A stretch of DNA of 37,774 nucleotides from a virus: positions 1 through 37,774 of IMG/VR virus record IMGVR_UViG_3300029319_003744; one strand, given 5' to 3'. Positions 19,819-34,445 of this stretch are shown here, piece after piece. Within the stretch, counting starts at the first letter, position 1. The number at the start of each line of letters is the position of its first letter. The notes below the pieces were generated by a model. The model saw nothing but the letters and a program-made list of their open reading frames with translations. It made no database searches and had not been told where the DNA came from. Made by a program: the position numbers and the translations under genes.

Positions 19819-21222
19819 TTATACACTTTCTACTTCATAGAGTGCATGACACTCTGGAAGTGTAACTTCAAGACCAGCCTCAGTAATAACCATATCTTTA
19901 CGTAAGTCTTCGTCAGTATTCTGTACATTAGTAATAATATGCGTATCACGATTTAAGCCATTACCAACTAATGGTCTATACATCAACTTGCTCATATCAG
20001 CCATCAACATAAATCCAGAGGAAAGACCTCTAAACAATGGCTCTTTTACTAAGTGCATTGTTCCATGAACAGTGTCAATAGTCATAATCTTATGACCAAA
20101 AGCACCTTGTCTTTCTTCGAAGTTGTAACGATTAACCATATTATTTTGCGATCCCATAGAAGCATCCATGAAAGCACCATCGCCTAACTTGTTAAAGAAA
20201 GTAATTACTGGTAATGAAGCAAGTACTAATCTATCTGAAGAACCACCTCTTGCTGGGTCAAAGATAACTTCTAAGTCAGCAAGTAATCTATCATAAGTTA
20301 GCTCAGCTTGAGCAACACTACGATAGTAAGGAGTTCCAGATGTATAGGTAAAAGCAGAATCATCAGTTATTGGGTTTGCATTTTTTACAATATGACCAAC
20401 TAATCCTTCAGTATATTGAACACCACTAACACGAGCTTTTTGTCCAAACAACATTGCACGCTCAATATCTACTTTATGCTCACGTAATTTAGAAGCCCAA
20501 ATTCTTTCAAACTCATTTGCATATCCACGGTAGCGTGTTGCAATAGCTGTGTTTGATAATTCACAAGCAGTTTTAAAGATTTGAGTAAAACCAAAATCAT
20601 CTTCTATTTCAGTTGAAAAAGTATCAGGTGAAGCAGAACCTTCAGCAAACGCAGTACCAACAACTTGACATACGTCATTGTTTGCAAGTACATTGTAACC
20701 AGAAACATTTGCATTTGAAACGTCAATGATCTTACCAGTAAAAGTACTAGTAGTTCCATCATCGTTTGGAGTGGTTTCTATTCTTACCATTGTTTGAGCA
20801 TAACCAGAGGTTTCAGCTCCAGTAGTTGTGTTGACAACAAATACCATTCCTTTAATTAGGAAATCAACTGAAGCTCCACCAGATGCAACACCACCAGTAG
20901 CAGTATCAGCATCAACAGTAAAAGTGTATGAGCTTCCAGCAGAAACAGCAGAGCCACCATTTACATCAGCAGCTAATAAGAAGTTTCTTGTTGTCATGTT
21001 TATTTTTGATCTATTCTCTAGATAGCGAAATACTGAGTCATCAGTAGGAGATTTAGCAACCTGCGAAAGGTATACGAAGAATGGCGATTCTTCTGGAGCC
21101 AATTCAGCAACTCGATCACTAAAATCGTATAACCGTCTTCTATCTGGAGCTTGTCCTATACCAGCACTAGCTGCAGCAGCAGTAATATCGCTAGAGAGTT
21201 TAATCCCTTGTTTAACAGACAT
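19819..21222 (-). CDS. Major capsid protein (HK97-type)
   Basis: 467 residues. Contains features seen in long phage capsid proteins: PEESPFFVYLSQVAKSPTDD near the N-terminus, an inserted Gly/Thr-rich domain (residues about 90-190), a helical spine (ANEFERIWASKLREHKVDIE, about 230-250), the loop FDPARGGSSDRLVLASLPVI and a C-terminal A-domain-like part (RPLVGNGLNRDTHIITNVQN). It sits between scaffold (21251-22114) and decoration protein, the usual order. Start ATG at 21222. High confidence from position, size and character; no residue-level family signature was verified. Confidence 0.85.
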   Translation of the reverse strand: MSVKQGIKLSSDITAAAASAGIGQAPDRRRLYDFSDRVAELAPEESPFFVYLSQVAKSPTDDSVFRYLENRSKINMTTRNFLLAADVNGGSAVSAGSSYTFTVDADTATGGVASGGASVDFLIKGMVFVVNTTTGAETSGYAQTMVRIETTPNDDGTTSTFTGKIIDVSNANVSGYNVLANNDVCQVVGTAFAEGSASPDTFSTEIEDDFGFTQIFKTACELSNTAIATRYRGYANEFERIWASKLREHKVDIERAMLFGQKARVSGVQYTEGLVGHIVKNANPITDDSAFTYTSGTPYYRSVAQAELTYDRLLADLEVIFDPARGGSSDRLVLASLPVITFFNKLGDGAFMDASMGSQNNMVNRYNFEERQGAFGHKIMTIDTVHGTMHLVKEPLFRGLSSGFMLMADMSKLMYRPLVGNGLNRDTHIITNVQNTDEDLRKDMVITEAGLEVTLPECHALYEVESV

Positions 21223-21250: not shown

Positions 21251-22114
21251 TTAAAGTAATCTTCCAGCATTGCCAGCTTTTAAGATTCTATCCCAAGAAA
21301 CATCTAACTCGCTTTTTACATTAGGTTCTCCACCTTGTAAAACACCAGCAGATCTTGGCATAGCTTGAGTATCGGCTACAGCTTGTATGTTTTCTGATGA
21401 GGGAGCATTTTCTCCTTTATTATAAAATTGTCTATAAACATTAATAAGAAAATCAACTGGTAGCTGATCTCTTGGTGTCATAGCAAAATTAATAAAGTCA
21501 TCTATTTCCTTATCATCGCCCATACCATACTTGCCTTTTAACTCAGTCTTAAGATTTTGCATAGCAACTTGACTTTGGATTCCAGCCATTTGTTCAGAAA
21601 CAGCTTCATTAACCAAAGCCTTTTCCTTCTCTACACGTAACTTATACGATGGAGAGTCAGGTTTGTAATAGGCTTCCCATGGGTCAAATGAATTTTCATC
21701 TACAATATTATCTTGAGATTTAGTTTCATTATTTTGTGCAGGCTTTCCTTCGAGTTGTTGTTGTAGTGCCTGAACCACATCTGGTCTAGATTCTAAAACA
21801 GATTGCAACTGCTGTAAAGGTTTTATTTGAGAACTTAATGCATCAAACTCAGCTTTTTGCTTATCATACATAGATTGAAATTTTCTACTTTCTTGTTCCC
21901 AATCAGTAGCATAATCAATCTGTTCTTCACTTCCTTCAGCAGTTATTTCGCTTGGAACCCTATATTGTTCTTGTTGTGGCTCTTCAGCTACTTGTTCTTG
22001 TGGTTCATTAGATACAACTTCAACATCTGGCATAGAAATATCTATACCTTTTCTGTCTTGTACTAATTTATCCTCGTAAGTATTTCCTACTTTTTCTGTT
22101 GTTTGGTCTTCCAT
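21251..22114 (-). CDS. Scaffolding protein
   Basis: 287 residues, acidic and Gln/Glu-rich. The N-terminal half is predicted disordered (EVVSNEPQEQVAEEPQQEQY), the centre is a long coiled coil (DWEQESRKFQSMYDKQKAEF), and the C-terminus has a helical region (MGDDKEIDDFINFAMTPRDQ) followed by GGEPNVKSELDVSWDRILKA. This layout and the place between portal and capsid fit a scaffold that directs procapsid assembly and is then lost. Good ribosome-binding site AAAGGAATAAA before ATG. Confidence 0.8.
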   Translation of the reverse strand: MEDQTTEKVGNTYEDKLVQDRKGIDISMPDVEVVSNEPQEQVAEEPQQEQYRVPSEITAEGSEEQIDYATDWEQESRKFQSMYDKQKAEFDALSSQIKPLQQLQSVLESRPDVVQALQQQLEGKPAQNNETKSQDNIVDENSFDPWEAYYKPDSPSYKLRVEKEKALVNEAVSEQMAGIQSQVAMQNLKTELKGKYGMGDDKEIDDFINFAMTPRDQLPVDFLINVYRQFYNKGENAPSSENIQAVADTQAMPRSAGVLQGGEPNVKSELDVSWDRILKAGNAGRLL

Positions 22115-22192: not shown

Positions 22193-24208
22193 TTAACCTT
22201 CAACGCCTTCTTCGGCACCCAATATGCCTTGTTCTTGCCTTTGTCCGAATCTAGCCTGCAAATCAGCTTTGTCAATTACATTTTCCAACCTATTGAGATT
22301 TTTTCTTTCTTTTTCTTTTAGCTCACCCATTACACTATCTAATCCGCTTTTGAACTTTTGAGTGATGGTTTGTTTTCTAGCATTAATCATTTCACGCTCA
22401 GAAGTTTGTAAATCACCACGCAACTTTTTAACCTCTTGTTCAAGTTGTTTAATGTATGACTGCATCTGATTCATAGTACCTTTTCGTTGCAGAACACCTT
22501 CTTTGTCGTAGATTTCAGTTTTCTTTAAAACCTCGACATCATCTACCAAGCCCAACTTGTAAGCATCTAAATACATATTGTACTCAGCCATCTTATTTGA
22601 TGGTAATGTTGAACCTGATACTATCCGAATATCGTGCTGACCTAATGATATATCATTATCTATAGACTGCAATTCTTTAGACTTATCATCGTAAAGTCTG
22701 TTATTTACAGTAAATTCTGTAATGTCATTATTAGGTTGCACTATTCTAAAAGTCTTTTTAAAACTATAATGTCCTTTTGCAAAATTATAAACACATCTGC
22801 CAAGAACATCTAAGCTTCCCTCTATATCCCTTAATTTAGATCTTCCTCTTGATTCTCCCATTTCTTGCAACAAGTATGTACCTCTAGCTGTATCAGCAGC
22901 ACCACTTTTAAATCCTTGTAACAACTCTGGTATACCAAAATTTAAATCTATATAATTTTCTACTCTACTAATTAATGCATAAAACTCAGAAGATAAAGCT
23001 TGGGGTGCTGGATAATGAGGTTCTCCAAACTCTGGATTAAACTCAATAACAGCATTAGGGTTTGCCCAATCTCTTTCTAGCTGACCAATATCATCAACAC
23101 TACCTTCTGGAACTAAAAGTTTTAAACCAGCAGAAGCTTGTGCATGACTTAAAGTTAAAGAAAATAATTTATTAATTAGTCTTTGAGAATCCTTAACCTT
23201 ATTTACATCGGACTTTGGATAAGGAGTGTTTGTCCAAATATTTGGGACTGGTATAATAGGGTATATATCAGTATTTAGCACTTGTTCATAAAGCAGTATT
23301 TGTCCAACTGTAGCCACATGTTTTATACGAGTTTGCATAACCTCGACTGCTTCAACCAGTCCCGATTCTATCAAATGAGAGTTTTCAGACAGAATCTTTT
23401 GAAAAGAATCTAAATCAACTATCTTTTCTTCTTGTGTTTCCTTATTAAATAATCTATAAAAAGGAACTTTAATTTTTTCAAATCTCTCTAGTATTTTATA
23501 TTTTTCATATCCGTCAGCATCATAATCTTTAACTACATCAGGAGTAAAAGAGGATGAAGAGTTTTTTCTTTTAGATGTAGGATAATCTTCTTCATCTGTT
23601 GAGCTATCAATACTATCAATAATTTCTTCTAGCTTTGGATATAATCCTAATAACTGATCTTTTGTAAGTATAGTAGAAAGGACTATAGCTGATGCATCAG
23701 CATAATGCCTATCTCTAGATGCTGGGTCTACATAAACACGAAAAGGGCTAACACCAGTAATCTTAACATCTCCTCTACCAAAATCTGATTCTGGGTCAAC
23801 ATAAACATAAAAGTATCCTATGCCAGATACTGAATAGTCATGGACGACTTGTTTAAAATGTGTATTGCAGTTTGATATATCCCAAATGTATTCTAGTATA
23901 GTTCGCCAAACATTTGATAATTTATAATCAGAATCTTCTCTGGCAACTGCAGTAAACTTTGGGTTTCTTGATGTTAGTAAAGATTTTAACTTATCTACAG
24001 CAGCATAAACTCTATCTATAATAAAATCACCTTGACCAACAGATTGAAGCATTTCTGATTCTTCTGATGAGTAGTGATTTCCTAAAACAAAATCTATAGC
24101 ATCTCTGGCTTCTGTATCCCAGTTTGCTCTAGCGTCTCTATACCTTCTAAATAAGTCTCTATTTCGCTGTGCTTCTTCATGCTCAGCAAATGTTTCTACG
24201 TAGTTAAT
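22193..24208 (-). CDS. Portal protein; probable AUU start
   Basis: Read from ATG at 24052 the protein has 619 residues and starts MLQSVGQGDFIIDRVYAAVD, but the frame stays open for 52 more codons upstream and encodes protein-like sequence (RRYRDARANWDTEARDAIDF, VLGNHYSSEESE) of the kind seen at portal N-termini. No ATG, GTG or TTG exists in that extension; an AUU at 24208 lies 7 bases after AGGAG. From AUU the length is 671 residues. Later parts: WRTILEYIWDISNCNTHFKQ, FRVYVDPASRDRHYADASAI, VPNIWTNTPYPKSDVNKVKD, LNFGIPELLQGFKSGAADTA and a C-terminal coiled coil. The dodecameric portal forms the DNA entry gate and binds the terminase. Confidence 0.85.
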   Translation of the reverse strand: MNYVETFAEHEEAQRNRDLFRRYRDARANWDTEARDAIDFVLGNHYSSEESEMLQSVGQGDFIIDRVYAAVDKLKSLLTSRNPKFTAVAREDSDYKLSNVWRTILEYIWDISNCNTHFKQVVHDYSVSGIGYFYVYVDPESDFGRGDVKITGVSPFRVYVDPASRDRHYADASAIVLSTILTKDQLLGLYPKLEEIIDSIDSSTDEEDYPTSKRKNSSSSFTPDVVKDYDADGYEKYKILERFEKIKVPFYRLFNKETQEEKIVDLDSFQKILSENSHLIESGLVEAVEVMQTRIKHVATVGQILLYEQVLNTDIYPIIPVPNIWTNTPYPKSDVNKVKDSQRLINKLFSLTLSHAQASAGLKLLVPEGSVDDIGQLERDWANPNAVIEFNPEFGEPHYPAPQALSSEFYALISRVENYIDLNFGIPELLQGFKSGAADTARGTYLLQEMGESRGRSKLRDIEGSLDVLGRCVYNFAKGHYSFKKTFRIVQPNNDITEFTVNNRLYDDKSKELQSIDNDISLGQHDIRIVSGSTLPSNKMAEYNMYLDAYKLGLVDDVEVLKKTEIYDKEGVLQRKGTMNQMQSYIKQLEQEVKKLRGDLQTSEREMINARKQTITQKFKSGLDSVMGELKEKERKNLNRLENVIDKADLQARFGQRQEQGILGAEEGVEG

Positions 24209-24225
24209 AGTCGGACTCCTAAATG

Positions 24226-24241
24226 TATATTATATAATATA
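24226..24241. repeat. 16-bp perfect palindrome over the portal -10 element
   Basis: TATATTATATAATATA reads the same on both strands and covers the -10 box of the portal promoter. A 12-bp version of the same palindrome (TATTATATAATA, 27128-27139) covers the -10 region of the small-terminase promoter. Such symmetry over a promoter is typical of a repressor operator but A/T-only palindromes also arise by chance in AT-rich DNA. Confidence 0.5.
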
Positions 24242-24264
24242 ATACGTTTTATGCTTTTTGTCAA
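24236..24264 (-). promoter_or_regulatory. Promoter for portal-scaffold-capsid operon
   Basis: Minus-strand TTGACA (24264-24259), 17-base spacer, TATATT (24241-24236), followed by AGGAG and the AUU start of the portal gene. It lies just after the terminase stop. The same TTGACA-N17-TATATT form occurs at 27136-27164, 28609-28637, 28652-28680 and 34721-34749, and with TTGATA at 34763-34791. Confidence 0.8.
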
Positions 24265-24272
24265 GTATTTTT

Positions 24273-25859
24273 TTATCTTCTTTGCCCAGTAATCCAACTT
24301 CTTAATACAGATTTTTGTTTTTTCTTTCGACTATTATTATTATCTGCTTGAAAATTATCAGAGTTAAAACTTTTACTTAAAGGTGCTCTCGCATTTACAA
24401 TAGAATACCAAAGACCATCTAACAAGTCATCATTTTTTCCTTTTGGAAAGTGAAACATTTCGTCTACTAACTCTTGATGTATTTTTCTATGAAACAGTTT
24501 ACCACGATTTACAATAGGACAAAGTGTAGATTCTATTCTATCTTCTTTTTTAATACCATGAGGTGGTCTAACTCCTCTAGCTATTCCAGGTGTCATCTTT
24601 CTATCGAACCCACTCATATTGTTTACAGAGTCTTTAATAATACCCTGAGCACCTACGTGCTCTACATTAACTCTTCTAACTGGATTATATTGTTTTGCGA
24701 TCTCAAATATTTTTTGTGGCATTTCATACAAGGGTAAATGATCGTGATAATATTCTAATATGTAATAATTTTTCTCACTATCAATAGCTGTAACCATAAT
24801 AACTTGATAGTCATTGTTTGCATTTGCTTCGTATGCCAAGTCCACACCCATATAAATATTTACTGGTATAACTTTATCTTTTGATTTTATGTAAGCTTGA
24901 TTAGAGTTAGATACAAACTCATAATCGTGATGCTGTAGCTTATCAATCTTAAATTTAGCAGTAGCTAAATCTCTAGCATCATTCATATACTCTTGTGCAA
25001 ACTTATGTAACTGACCTACGTTTTCATAGTCTTTACGTATTTGATTTATCTTGTCTTTACTAAAATAAGAATCCCATAAAGGCTTACCATTTTCGAGTAC
25101 TCTATGAAATATAACATCCCAAGTATAAGATTCGTTTTTTTCTTGGGCTTCAAGATATCCATCGTATATAGCCTGCAATGCTGAATCGTAATGTACGATA
25201 GTGCCAATTAACCAAATGGATCCCTCGTTGCCCTTAGATTCTTCTAAAGATGGGTAGACAGTTGACATCAACCATTCTTTAATCTCTCTTCTTCTATCTG
25301 GTGTTTTTGTATTTAACTCAGATTCAAAGTCATCAAGAATAATATTTGTATATCTAGTACCTAACTCAGATCGACCACGCAATCTTTGACTAGTACCTTT
25401 TGCTATAACTCTATCTCCACGACTAGTTGTTATTTCTTTTTCAGTCCACTTATCTCCAACCATATCTCCAAAGTAATAGTGTAATGGACTGTTAAACTCA
25501 ATATGATTTTTAATATACTTTAAATGATCAACAGCTTGTCCTTGCTCTTCCGATACCCAAGCAGCAAATTCTTTTTTACCTTGTGGGTTAAAATATATTT
25601 TATGAAGCAATGCAGCTTTAGCCATAGTAGATTTAGAATGACCTCTAGGTAAAACAACACAAAGTTTTCTAAGGCTTCTGTCAAGCAACTTATTACCAAC
25701 CTCATAATGAAAAGGTGCTGGTGTGCTTTTCATAAAATCTTCTGGAAGAAACAGTTGACCAAAAGCTATAAGATCTTTTGATACTAAATTAAGAACTCTT
25801 TCTTTTTCAGAAAGACCGCTTGAGTTTATATTAAAATTATCTATCGTACCAGTCTCCAC
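24273..25859 (-). CDS. Terminase large subunit (TerL), T7-like
   Basis: 528 residues. Walker A PRGHSKST (71-78), Walker B NIILDDFESE (172-181, catalytic DD), and an RNase H-like nuclease with YMGVDLAYEANANNDYQ (D340), NVEHVGAQG (E400) and a C-terminal KNDDLLDGLWYS acidic motif. This is the ATPase-nuclease motor that packages DNA and cuts concatemers. The start is GTG at 25859 with only a weak ribosome-binding site and a 23-base overlap with the preceding gamma-glutamylcyclotransferase-like gene, implying coupled translation. Neighbours include small terminase and portal, as expected. Confidence 0.93.
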   Translation of the reverse strand: METGTIDNFNINSSGLSEKERVLNLVSKDLIAFGQLFLPEDFMKSTPAPFHYEVGNKLLDRSLRKLCVVLPRGHSKSTMAKAALLHKIYFNPQGKKEFAAWVSEEQGQAVDHLKYIKNHIEFNSPLHYYFGDMVGDKWTEKEITTSRGDRVIAKGTSQRLRGRSELGTRYTNIILDDFESELNTKTPDRRREIKEWLMSTVYPSLEESKGNEGSIWLIGTIVHYDSALQAIYDGYLEAQEKNESYTWDVIFHRVLENGKPLWDSYFSKDKINQIRKDYENVGQLHKFAQEYMNDARDLATAKFKIDKLQHHDYEFVSNSNQAYIKSKDKVIPVNIYMGVDLAYEANANNDYQVIMVTAIDSEKNYYILEYYHDHLPLYEMPQKIFEIAKQYNPVRRVNVEHVGAQGIIKDSVNNMSGFDRKMTPGIARGVRPPHGIKKEDRIESTLCPIVNRGKLFHRKIHQELVDEMFHFPKGKNDDLLDGLWYSIVNARAPLSKSFNSDNFQADNNNSRKKKQKSVLRSWITGQRR

Positions 25860-26423: not shown

Positions 26424-27126
26424 CTAACTGCTCCTTTGTAAATCCTTGAAAGACAGCAACTGATTCTGTTCTTTTATCTGTATCCATCATCCCACTGATT
26501 TGCATTAATGTTTTAATAGCTTGTATTTTATCTTTATCTTGAGACTCCCCATTGTCTACAATATGTTTCATTTGTTCTAGTAAATACAAAGGAGTAATCT
26601 CAGCTTCTGTAAGAACTTTATCTATTTCTTCTCTAATCAATTTTTGTATCCTTTTTGCTTTCATGAGTATTTTGGCTTGACCCTCAGCATATTTTCTATT
26701 ATTGGTTGGGTATGCTTTTAAAAAAGAGTCTACTACATTATCACCTTTAGCAACAAATTGAGCAAAAAGAAACTCTCTGTGTGTTAACTTTTGTTTCCCA
26801 ATTTTATGCTTCCAGACTGTTTTATCAGCCAAGCCAAAAGAGTAAAGATTTTTTCTAGGCTCTCCTTTAATTTTAATATTGTCTCTACAAAGAAATGTTC
26901 CTAATGGAGCTCTAATATAATTTTTAATTACTTTAGAATCTTTTCTATGTTTAAGTTCTCCACGTTTTAAAACCTGACAAACTTGCCCATCATCTGAAAC
27001 TATCCAATCTCCCTCTTTACCATCTCTCCAATTATAAACAACATCAATATTAGGATTGTATTTCTTAAACTCTTCTATACTTTCGTATATAGGATGATTA
27101 ACTTTATTAATCTTTCTGTTTATCAT
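26362..27126 (-). CDS. Terminase small subunit (TerS)
   Basis: 254 residues. The C-terminal 150 carry the small-terminase pattern LTHREFLFAQFVAKGDNVVD, SFLKAYPTNNRKYAEGQAKI, then LMKAKRIQKLIREEIDKV and EAEITPLYLLEQMKHIVDNG: a helix-turn-helix DNA-binding region followed by the oligomerisation helices. The N-terminal 105 residues are an extra domain (SDDGQVCQVLKRGELKHRKD) not usual for the family. The promoter TATATT ends 9 bases before the ATG and no ribosome-binding site is present, so the message is probably leaderless. Confidence 0.85.
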   Translation of the reverse strand: MINRKINKVNHPIYESIEEFKKYNPNIDVVYNWRDGKEGDWIVSDDGQVCQVLKRGELKHRKDSKVIKNYIRAPLGTFLCRDNIKIKGEPRKNLYSFGLADKTVWKHKIGKQKLTHREFLFAQFVAKGDNVVDSFLKAYPTNNRKYAEGQAKILMKAKRIQKLIREEIDKVLTEAEITPLYLLEQMKHIVDNGESQDKDKIQAIKTLMQISGMMDTDKRTESVAVFQGFTKEQLDAIGSGGVKQIAEANREVEV

Positions 27127-28651: not shown

Positions 28652-28680
28652 TTGACAAATGCTATTAAAGTACTTATATT
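28652..28680 (+). promoter_or_regulatory. Rightward promoter of divergent pair (right arm)
   Basis: TTGACA (28652-28657), 17-base spacer, TATATT (28675-28680). Predicted transcript begins near 28687 and carries a long AT-rich leader before the lipoprotein gene at 28886. Confidence 0.85.
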
Positions 28681-31645: not shown

Positions 31646-32818
31646 ATGTGTGGTATATTTGGTTATGCAAAGCAGAGTAATGCACAGACAGACCAACAGA
31701 TGGAGACCATAAACGTAGTTCTAAAGAATCTAGCTAGAGAATCAGAAGTCAGAGGTACAGATTCTACTGGTATAGCAGTTATTAACGAGAATAAGAATCC
31801 TCAGGTATTCAAGTCTCTAAAGAAAGCTAGTAATCTAGTTAAGAACAGACACTATGGAAAGATTCAAGAGCATATTGACAAAGAGACAGCGATAGTTCTA
31901 GGTCATACTAGATACGCTACTCATGGTACAGTATCTCTAAAGAATGCTCATCCATTTAGTTTTAACTCTATCATTGGTACTCACAATGGTGTAATATACA
32001 ACCATGAGGATGTCTCAGCATCTCTTAAGAGAGTGTATGAGGTAGACTCACAAGCTGTGTTTGCTCTATTTGACCAGAATAGTAACTTACAAGAATGTCT
32101 AGATAAAATGTATGGAGACTACGCATTAGCATGGAATAAAGATAACAAGAACACCTTGTATCTATTGAGAGAAAAAGGTAGACCATGCCACTACGTATAC
32201 TGGAGTGAAGCTAGAGTTATGTTCTACGCATCTACTAAAGAGATACTAGAACAAGCTATACAGAAAAGCACTATGAGTAAACGTATAGACAAGCATACGA
32301 TTGAAGTATATAATCACTTGCTAGATCTATATACGTCTGAGATACATACACTAGATGTGGATAAGTTATACACATTTGATACACATAAGTTTACAGACGA
32401 GTTAGTATACGAGACTAAAGACTATATCACAAACTCTATATCATATAACTACGTAAATAGTAGAAGTGCCTGGAATTATGGTGGCTATGGTAGCTATGGA
32501 TATAACACTTGCGATGTAGATGATTATATGCTAGACGAGATTAGTTGTGATGGATGCAATGAGAAGACTCAGTACATGGATATAATCTACAACGAAGATA
32601 CTAAAGAGTATGTATGCTATGATTGTGAATACAAAGAGAATCCAAAACTAAACGTAGACGAAGCTTATATGGAAGGTATAGAGTGTGGCGACTGCAAGTC
32701 TTACGATGACAACATATATAAAGTCAAAGACAATTATATATGTGAAGATTGTTATGTCAAGGGAGACTTATTTAGAGAGGAGGGTTATGAAGATGGACAG
32801 CAAGCTTTTCTCTCATAA
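31646..32818 (+). CDS. Class II glutamine amidotransferase fused to Zn-binding modules
   Basis: 390 residues. N-terminal nucleophile domain: MCGIFGY with catalytic Cys2, GTDSTGIA (37-44), GHTRYATHGT (86-95, Arg and His of the glutamine pocket), THNGVIYN (112-119; N114, G115) and D134 in EVDSQAVF, all key residues of GlmS/PurF-type domains. It should release ammonia from glutamine or transfer a gamma-glutamyl group. No synthase domain follows. Instead, residues 301-369 hold two CxxC pairs twice (C301/C304/C324/C327 and C347/C350/C366/C369), treble-clef or LIM-like. The downstream amidoligase shares this type of module, so they probably work together. Strong AAGGAAGGAG site. Confidence 0.9.
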   Translation: MCGIFGYAKQSNAQTDQQMETINVVLKNLARESEVRGTDSTGIAVINENKNPQVFKSLKKASNLVKNRHYGKIQEHIDKETAIVLGHTRYATHGTVSLKNAHPFSFNSIIGTHNGVIYNHEDVSASLKRVYEVDSQAVFALFDQNSNLQECLDKMYGDYALAWNKDNKNTLYLLREKGRPCHYVYWSEARVMFYASTKEILEQAIQKSTMSKRIDKHTIEVYNHLLDLYTSEIHTLDVDKLYTFDTHKFTDELVYETKDYITNSISYNYVNSRSAWNYGGYGSYGYNTCDVDDYMLDEISCDGCNEKTQYMDIIYNEDTKEYVCYDCEYKENPKLNVDEAYMEGIECGDCKSYDDNIYKVKDNYICEDCYVKGDLFREEGYEDGQQAFLS

Positions 32819-33113: not shown

Positions 33114-34445
33114 ATGCCAGGTAGAATAAATACTAGAAGGATAGAAACCTTTGAATGTGATTGCTGTAGCGATACATATACAAAGACTAGTATCGAAGCT
33201 AGAAAGCAAGAGAGAGAAGGTACCTTAGAGCATTCTATAAGACAAGCAATGGGCGTTGATGTATACGACCAACCACGTTGGTCTATAATATGTAATGTCT
33301 GTTACAATGATGTTATAGAAACATGCTATGATTGCTCTTCTCAGTTAGAGAGAGGTGGTACAAATACTTTCTACTCTGAAGATGGAGATTCATTCTGTGA
33401 AGATTGTTACTATGAACATTATGGACATTGCGATGATTGTGGAGAAGAATGTCATAGAGACTATATGATATACAGAGAAAGCAGAGAAGAGACATACTGT
33501 GAGAACTGCGATCCTGGAGATGGAGATGATGTAGACCTATGGAGTTTCAATAGAACAAATAAGATAGAGTCTACAATACCAGAGGCAGAATCACGTAGGT
33601 TTGTAGGTATTGAGATAGAGTGTTTAGTTGACGATTCAGAATGGTGGAATTATCATGATGGTTATCCAGAGACATTCAGAGCTGTTAGTGATAGTTCTAT
33701 AGAAAGAGGAGGAGAAGAAAGTGCAGTAGAGTTTGTACATAGAGCACCGATACAAGGTAGAAGACTCAAGAGGTCTATAGTTTCTATGTGCGATTATCTA
33801 TCAGATAACAACTTCTTTGTTAATAGAAGCTGTGGTCTACACGTACACGTTGATGCTGCAGATATGGGTTACAGAGACCTTAAGTGGACTTTACTACTAG
33901 GTAAGTCTATTCAAGATATTATCTATAAGATGATGCCAATGTCTAGACGAGATGGTAGATGGGCTAAGAGAATACCTATGAGTAGAGAGAGTATACTTAA
34001 TATCTGTGATGACCATGACTTTGTAGACTCATGGTACTCAGCCTGGGGTGTAGAGCCTAGCTACGAGAAGTACAATCACTCTAGATATTGTGGTATGAAT
34101 ATGCACTCTAGGATTATCAATGGCTCTATTGAGTTTAGGTATCACTCTGGTACTATCAATAGAAACAAGATAATAAACTGGATTACTATATGCCAAGCGA
34201 TAGTAGATACTGGTAGACTTCTAGGTATGTATGGAGAGACTAAACATATTACTAATATTCCACAAGAGTATCAGTATATAAAGATATTAGCTAACCAGAT
34301 CTCTGATAGAAACCTAACCTATGGAGAGTTTTGTAAGTATCTTAGATTACCTCTTGAGGTAAAGCAATACGCTAGAAAGAGACTAACTAAGTTCTACAGC
34401 TCTGACTACAGAGAAGACTACGAGACTATGCATTTCTACGTATAA
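33114..34445 (+). CDS. Amidoligase (glutamine-synthetase-like COOH-NH2 ligase) with N-terminal Zn modules
   Basis: 443 residues. Residues 1-140 are Zn-binding: pairs at C15/C18, C60/C63, C71/C74, C95/C98, C106/C109, C129/C132 (treble-clef or LIM-like). Residues 162-375 match Amidoligase_2 motifs: VGIEIEC (164-170), DSS (193-195), VEF (205-207), SCGLHVHVD (239-247), CGMNMHS (326-332) and GSIEFRYHSGT (337-347). Families with this fold are predicted to use ATP to join carboxyl and amine groups, forming peptide or amide bonds. AGGAGG upstream of ATG. Together with the class II amidotransferase it suggests ammonia- or peptide-linked modification of an unknown target. Confidence 0.88.
   Translation: MPGRINTRRIETFECDCCSDTYTKTSIEARKQEREGTLEHSIRQAMGVDVYDQPRWSIICNVCYNDVIETCYDCSSQLERGGTNTFYSEDGDSFCEDCYYEHYGHCDDCGEECHRDYMIYRESREETYCENCDPGDGDDVDLWSFNRTNKIESTIPEAESRRFVGIEIECLVDDSEWWNYHDGYPETFRAVSDSSIERGGEESAVEFVHRAPIQGRRLKRSIVSMCDYLSDNNFFVNRSCGLHVHVDAADMGYRDLKWTLLLGKSIQDIIYKMMPMSRRDGRWAKRIPMSRESILNICDDHDFVDSWYSAWGVEPSYEKYNHSRYCGMNMHSRIINGSIEFRYHSGTINRNKIINWITICQAIVDTGRLLGMYGETKHITNIPQEYQYIKILANQISDRNLTYGEFCKYLRLPLEVKQYARKRLTKFYSSDYREDYETMHFYV

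Follow-up and report, generated by a model that had tools for sequence, protein, structure and literature searches.

An AUU-type start codon conserved in the portal genes of a phage family and its proposed role in limiting portal synthesis

The portal gene and its start region

The DNA analysed here (the window) comprises positions 1 to 37,774 of the IMG/VR virus record IMGVR_UViG_3300029319_003744. On its minus strand, the portal gene is found in a packaging and head gene order, with the terminase large subunit gene upstream of it and the capsid gene two genes downstream. The features of this region are as follows.

24273..25859, minus strand: terminase large subunit gene; the nominal GTG at 25859 is not conserved, and the gene more likely starts at the conserved ATA at 25844-25842
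24236..24264, minus strand: predicted promoter TTGACA-17-TATATT, just upstream of the portal start
24216..24220, minus strand: Shine-Dalgarno sequence AGGAG, 7 nt 5' of the AUU codon
24206..24208, minus strand: AUU, portal start codon assigned from the sequence; the aligned codon is ATT, ATC or ATA (together AUH) in 138 of 172 distinct contexts
22193..24208, minus strand: portal protein gene (P22-like, 671 aa, stop included), with matches to PF16510 and phrog_156
24050..24052, minus strand: first in-frame ATG of the portal frame (codon 53), which is not conserved and is not the start
21251..22114, minus strand: scaffold-like gene (named by position), 287 aa, between the portal and capsid genes; ATG start (control)
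19819..21222, minus strand: major capsid protein gene (phrog_1328); ATG start (control)

The portal product is recognized as a P22-like portal by family-profile matches extending across most of the protein, viz. PF16510 over residues 17-575 (E 2e-51; 175.7 bits vs a cut-off of 26.1) and phrog_156 over residues 13-660 of the protein read from the ATT (E 7e-66). The initial annotation had proposed that the portal frame continues for 52 codons upstream of its first ATG without any ATG, GTG or TTG among them, that this stretch resembles a portal N-terminus, and that AGGAG is placed 7 bases before an AUU codon at 24208. All of these observations are confirmed: the open frame runs from 24229 to the stop codon at 22193 and holds none of the three codons before the ATG at 24052; both profile matches begin well within the stretch, so that a start at residue 53 would cost 36 of the residues matched by Pfam; and the minus strand reads AGGAG (24220-24216), TCCGACT (7 nt), ATT (24208-24206) and then AAC TAC GTA GAA. 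The portal gene thus lacks any NTG codon at its conserved N-terminus and carries a Shine-Dalgarno sequence at a usable spacing, as is characteristic of an AUH start.

Based on the position of the predicted promoter, which begins at 24264, the portal message probably has its 5' end near 24229 and a leader of about 20 nt. Between this predicted mRNA start and the ATT of the window there is no ATG, GTG or TTG in any frame, and entry by frameshifting from another frame was rejected on this ground. In the window's clade, all 47 contexts long enough to be tested have a promoter-like match upstream of the portal (2 others were too short). No full TTGACA/TATATT promoter was found between the portal and capsid genes, though there is a weaker promoter-like match (10 of 12) before the capsid gene at 22275, which comes from a scan that overall barely exceeds shuffled sequences.

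Start codons in related portals and neighbouring genes

Relatives were collected from IMG/VR in six scans, five of them run with the portal family and the last headed by a more distant member, covering about 65-100% amino acid identity, and the best 80 loci were retained per scan; the start-codon counts given below describe this sample, and its contexts are distinct sequences rather than independent events, some contigs contributing several loci. Left out were 13 of the 302 matches, which lacked the 5' end, the locus L449, and 10 loci missed by the motif search, 5 of which were restored. In seven contexts (L052-L056, L269 and L275) the start was set at the conserved column and not by the Shine-Dalgarno-based pick, and that of L269 can be read as either ATA or ATC. 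Among 50,697 phage records the sole match of the portal was MW202520.1 at 22% identity, and every terminase and capsid match among phage isolates was below 60%. Scans of genome contigs for a host gave no relative, and no tRNA genes were found in the window or in eight relatives.

The 172 distinct portal 5' contexts start with ATT in 96 cases, ATC in 31, ATA in 11, TTG in 3 and ATG in 31. In the first scan, where 11 of the best 80 loci lacked the portal 5' end, all of the other 69 carry AUH at the aligned codon (ATT 56, ATC 9, ATA 4), and these loci reach down to 68% identity. An in-frame NTG upstream of the AUH codon is present in just 6 of the 138 AUH contexts, while some NTG lies within codons 2-25 in 40 of them, mostly an ATG at codon 24 of one clade. 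The L098 group has an ATG in frame with its ATC, 18 nt 5' of that codon and ahead of the Shine-Dalgarno sequence; this ATG is restricted to that lineage.

The neighbouring genes differ from the portal in this regard. The capsid gene starts with ATG in 139/140 loci, the exception (L036) having an ATG behind GGAGG but a match that begins further on, apparently past a frame change, and the scaffold-like gene, for which no PHROG match was obtained, starts with ATG in 114/115 and TTG in 1. P22-like portals at large (PF16510, phrog_156) belong to the same protein family; however, in the other such family examined, an unrelated one reached by a control scan with a distant portal, ATG is the start in 61 of 62 distinct contexts, and the remaining one is without its 5' end. 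A survey of the window and eight relatives for long ORFs whose first 40 codons lack NTG recovered the portal genes of the window and of three relatives (G002, G004 and G008), together with ORFs that run off a contig end or are taken as putative antisense shadows; in the remaining five genomes the portal has an NTG somewhere in this 40-codon stretch and so was not recovered. Judged from these comparisons, i.e. the conservation of AUH in the relatives and the use of ATG in neighbouring genes, the portal AUH is a long-conserved non-canonical start, and neither an error nor a chance codon.

The pattern of sequence variation also changes at this codon. Downstream of the start, codon third positions vary at 0.36-0.43 vs 0.03-0.17 at first and second positions in four clades (the means for positions 1, 2 and 3 are 0.10, 0.03 and 0.36 in the window's clade), and no third-position pattern is seen in the eight triplets 5' of it, which indicates that translation begins at about the AUH codon. 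Codons 3-5 of the portal (TAC GTA GAA; 24194-24202, minus strand) are invariant at the third base throughout the window's clade (49 contexts), compared with a mean variation of 0.38 later in the gene; perhaps they belong to the ribosome-binding region.

In a quick maximum-likelihood tree of 140 distinct portals, whose outgroup (24% identity) roots it weakly, the five start-codon states require 15 changes but the ATG, TTG and AUH classes only 3. The third base of AUH has changed at least 12 times, and on this tree the TTG lineage alone has a G there, with no ATG seen at that column; if all bases are naively taken as equally likely, then the chance of 12 such changes without a G is about 0.008. 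As AUH lineages occur on either side of the family's deepest splits, the AUH start is probably old in this portal family.

In the TTG lineage (L122-L124) the TTG occupies exactly the aligned start column, so that this column is identified as the start. The ATG starts are confined to one clade (L230 and its kin), where they precede the aligned AUH position by one codon (GGGAG TAT ATG GCA AAT TAC vs GGGAG TCT AAG ATT AAA TAC), and the same larger clade also holds lineages with ATT, ATC or ATA. The spacing from the Shine-Dalgarno core is 5-8 nt in all 138 AUH contexts vs 3-4 nt in all 31 ATG contexts, and it is 5-11 nt for the capsid-gene ATGs of the same loci (139 loci). However, the association of codon and spacing should not be counted as 31 events, as the ATG lineages have one or two origins (a tree that places all ATG lineages in one clade is not rejected; p-AU 0.157) and the link thus represents one or two events. 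Further, the scaffold-like gene has a spacing of 3-4 nt in 57/114 loci, and this weakens the case that short spacing alone means weak initiation.

Proposed role of the AUH start and alternative explanations

The portal is a 12-mer, of which few copies are needed, and it is a gene whose dose should be low. The reading we favour, at a probability of roughly 0.7, is that the portal is initiated at a weak AUU whose low yield keeps it rare relative to the capsid protein. The ordinary initiator tRNA (fMet) would start the portal at the AUU at 24208, positioned by the Shine-Dalgarno sequence 7 nt upstream. Since AUU, AUC and AUA would pair poorly with this tRNA and be rejected by IF3, which discriminates against these codons and not against AUG, GUG or UUG (PMC4611024), a small share of the bound ribosomes would start, and portal synthesis would therefore be low despite its first place on a message from a good promoter. 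This promoter would also supply message to the downstream genes, including the capsid gene, which is on the same strand and presumably co-transcribed, with the outcome that the portal is made far below the capsid protein. If so, then selection would act on the low level and not on a particular codon, because AUU, AUC and AUA interchange, TTG has been adopted once, and the ATG clade has its spacing at 3-4 nt.

Two explanations would do away with the AUU start altogether. If the true codon at 24206-24208 were ATG, altered by a sequencing or assembly error, a case raised in the initial annotation, then the rarity of AUU would be accounted for, and nothing else; however, independent metagenome contigs carry ATT, and the 69 first-scan loci with AUH come from many metagenomes, so that such an error is excluded by the relatives and we give it next to no credence. 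If instead translation began at the first conventional downstream codon (the ATG at 24052 here) and the N-terminal stretch were untranslated, then related portals might begin at this position, as was also considered earlier. Of the 138 AUH contexts, 29 do have their first in-frame ATG at codon 53, but it lies elsewhere in the others (over all 138 the median is codon 99, and the position is not conserved), none of the relatives shows a conserved start where ATG 24052 lies, the Pfam domain begins at residue 17, and the early portal codons are conserved with mostly synonymous changes. This possibility is thus exceedingly improbable.

The other alternatives accept the AUH start and differ as to why it is kept. 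The suggestion that the AUU throttles portal synthesis, made in the initial annotation, stands as the best explanation, and what is less well supported is the accompanying link to infC. On a reading of that kind, AUH would make portal synthesis respond to IF3 or to the IF2/IF3 ratio and thus change during infection, instead of fixing it at a low level. The 138 of 172 contexts with AUH use exactly the codons against which IF3 discriminates, and promoters about 5-9 nt before the ATGs of other genes predict leaderless mRNAs, which are likewise antagonised by IF3 (PMC4611024). However, one lineage has TTG and one clade ATG, both canonical for IF3, and no phage protein that acts on IF3 was found. 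The TTG and ATG lineages fit a fixed throttle better than IF3 sensing, which we consider unlikely. It is very unlikely that AUH is retained for a nucleotide-level reason, viz. an operator or RNA element over the start, with the low yield as a by-product. The invariant TAC GTA GAA described above contains the palindrome TACGTA, but other clades without this sequence still keep AUH and the leader has no marked fold (z -1.66); TACGTA as a repeated operator was rejected, as it is not enriched in the genomes (in the window, 8 seen vs 12.7 expected).

Several known systems resemble the proposed throttle. The AUU start of E. coli pcnB is a weak start that reportedly limits the dose of one protein. 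The GTC start of Streptomyces sigR is a weak start of comparable effect, holding one partner below the other (PMC5472188). However, pcnB and sigR are cellular genes, and repeated codon switching as in the portal family is not reported for them in the sources drawn upon. The gene infC likewise has an AUH start (ATT in E. coli, ATC in Streptomyces (PMC5472188), and AUA with an extended Shine-Dalgarno sequence in S. aureus (PMC13009471)), but it is a cellular gene under IF3 feedback, whereas the portal is a phage structural gene, lineages of which have also switched to TTG or ATG. Non-canonical starts are also described for S. aureus cvfC1 (AUU), ccpN (AUA) and citZ (AUA), and those of cvfC1 and ccpN are conserved in Staphylococcus with strong Shine-Dalgarno sequences (PMC13009471). 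These too are cellular genes, for which reporters gave about 10% of AUG expression in poor medium (PMC13009471); that the portal is kept low by its AUH start is suggested by analogy with them.

In a literature search covering titles and abstracts of open-licence papers, no AUH-type start was described for a phage portal. AUH starts that limit dose are already known as a kind; to our knowledge, the novelty lies in finding one in a phage portal family, in how widely it occurs there and in the repeated switching of its codon. The AUH starts described to date belong to a few cellular genes; the present one is maintained across a phage family of considerable diversity (down to about 65% identity), in which the natural lineages with swapped codon and Shine-Dalgarno spacing provide many replicates for examining how the stoichiometry of viral subunits is set at the initiation step. 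Gene finders restricted to ATG, GTG and TTG will truncate or misplace these portals.

Terminase start and other observations in the window

The terminase is probably a second gene with an AUA start. Of the 26 distinct contexts available in the window's clade, 10 have GCG in place of its nominal GTG at 25859, a variation due to the coding of the upstream gene, the end of which overlaps the terminase start region. No NTG occurs before the conserved Phe-Asn-Ile in 11 of these 26 contexts, and 25/26 contexts of this clade, together with 24/24 of its sister clade, carry an ATA three codons ahead of this motif. However, as an ATG is available in 20/24 contexts of the sister clade, the AUA start is probable rather than certain. 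A broader proposal is that leaderless AUG messages and packaging genes with AUH and a Shine-Dalgarno sequence (portal and terminase), both antagonised by IF3, would form one translation programme based on initiation fidelity, which a shift in the host IF2/IF3 ratio during infection would switch together; this we regard as distinctly unlikely.

Elsewhere in the window, TTGACA-17-TATATT promoters like that of the portal, from 27164 and 28637 (minus strand), end 9 and 6 nt before ATGs at 27126 and 28602, respectively, and leaderless mRNAs are predicted from them; close promoter-ATG arrangements of this kind are also present in four relatives (G001, G002, G004 and G008). The promoter-like sites at 28652 (plus strand) and 34749 (minus strand) are followed by AT-repeat tracts with no close ATG, and similar sites are seen in relatives. 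Glutamine amidotransferase-like and amidoligase-like genes are found on the plus strand at 31646-32818 and 33114-34445, respectively.
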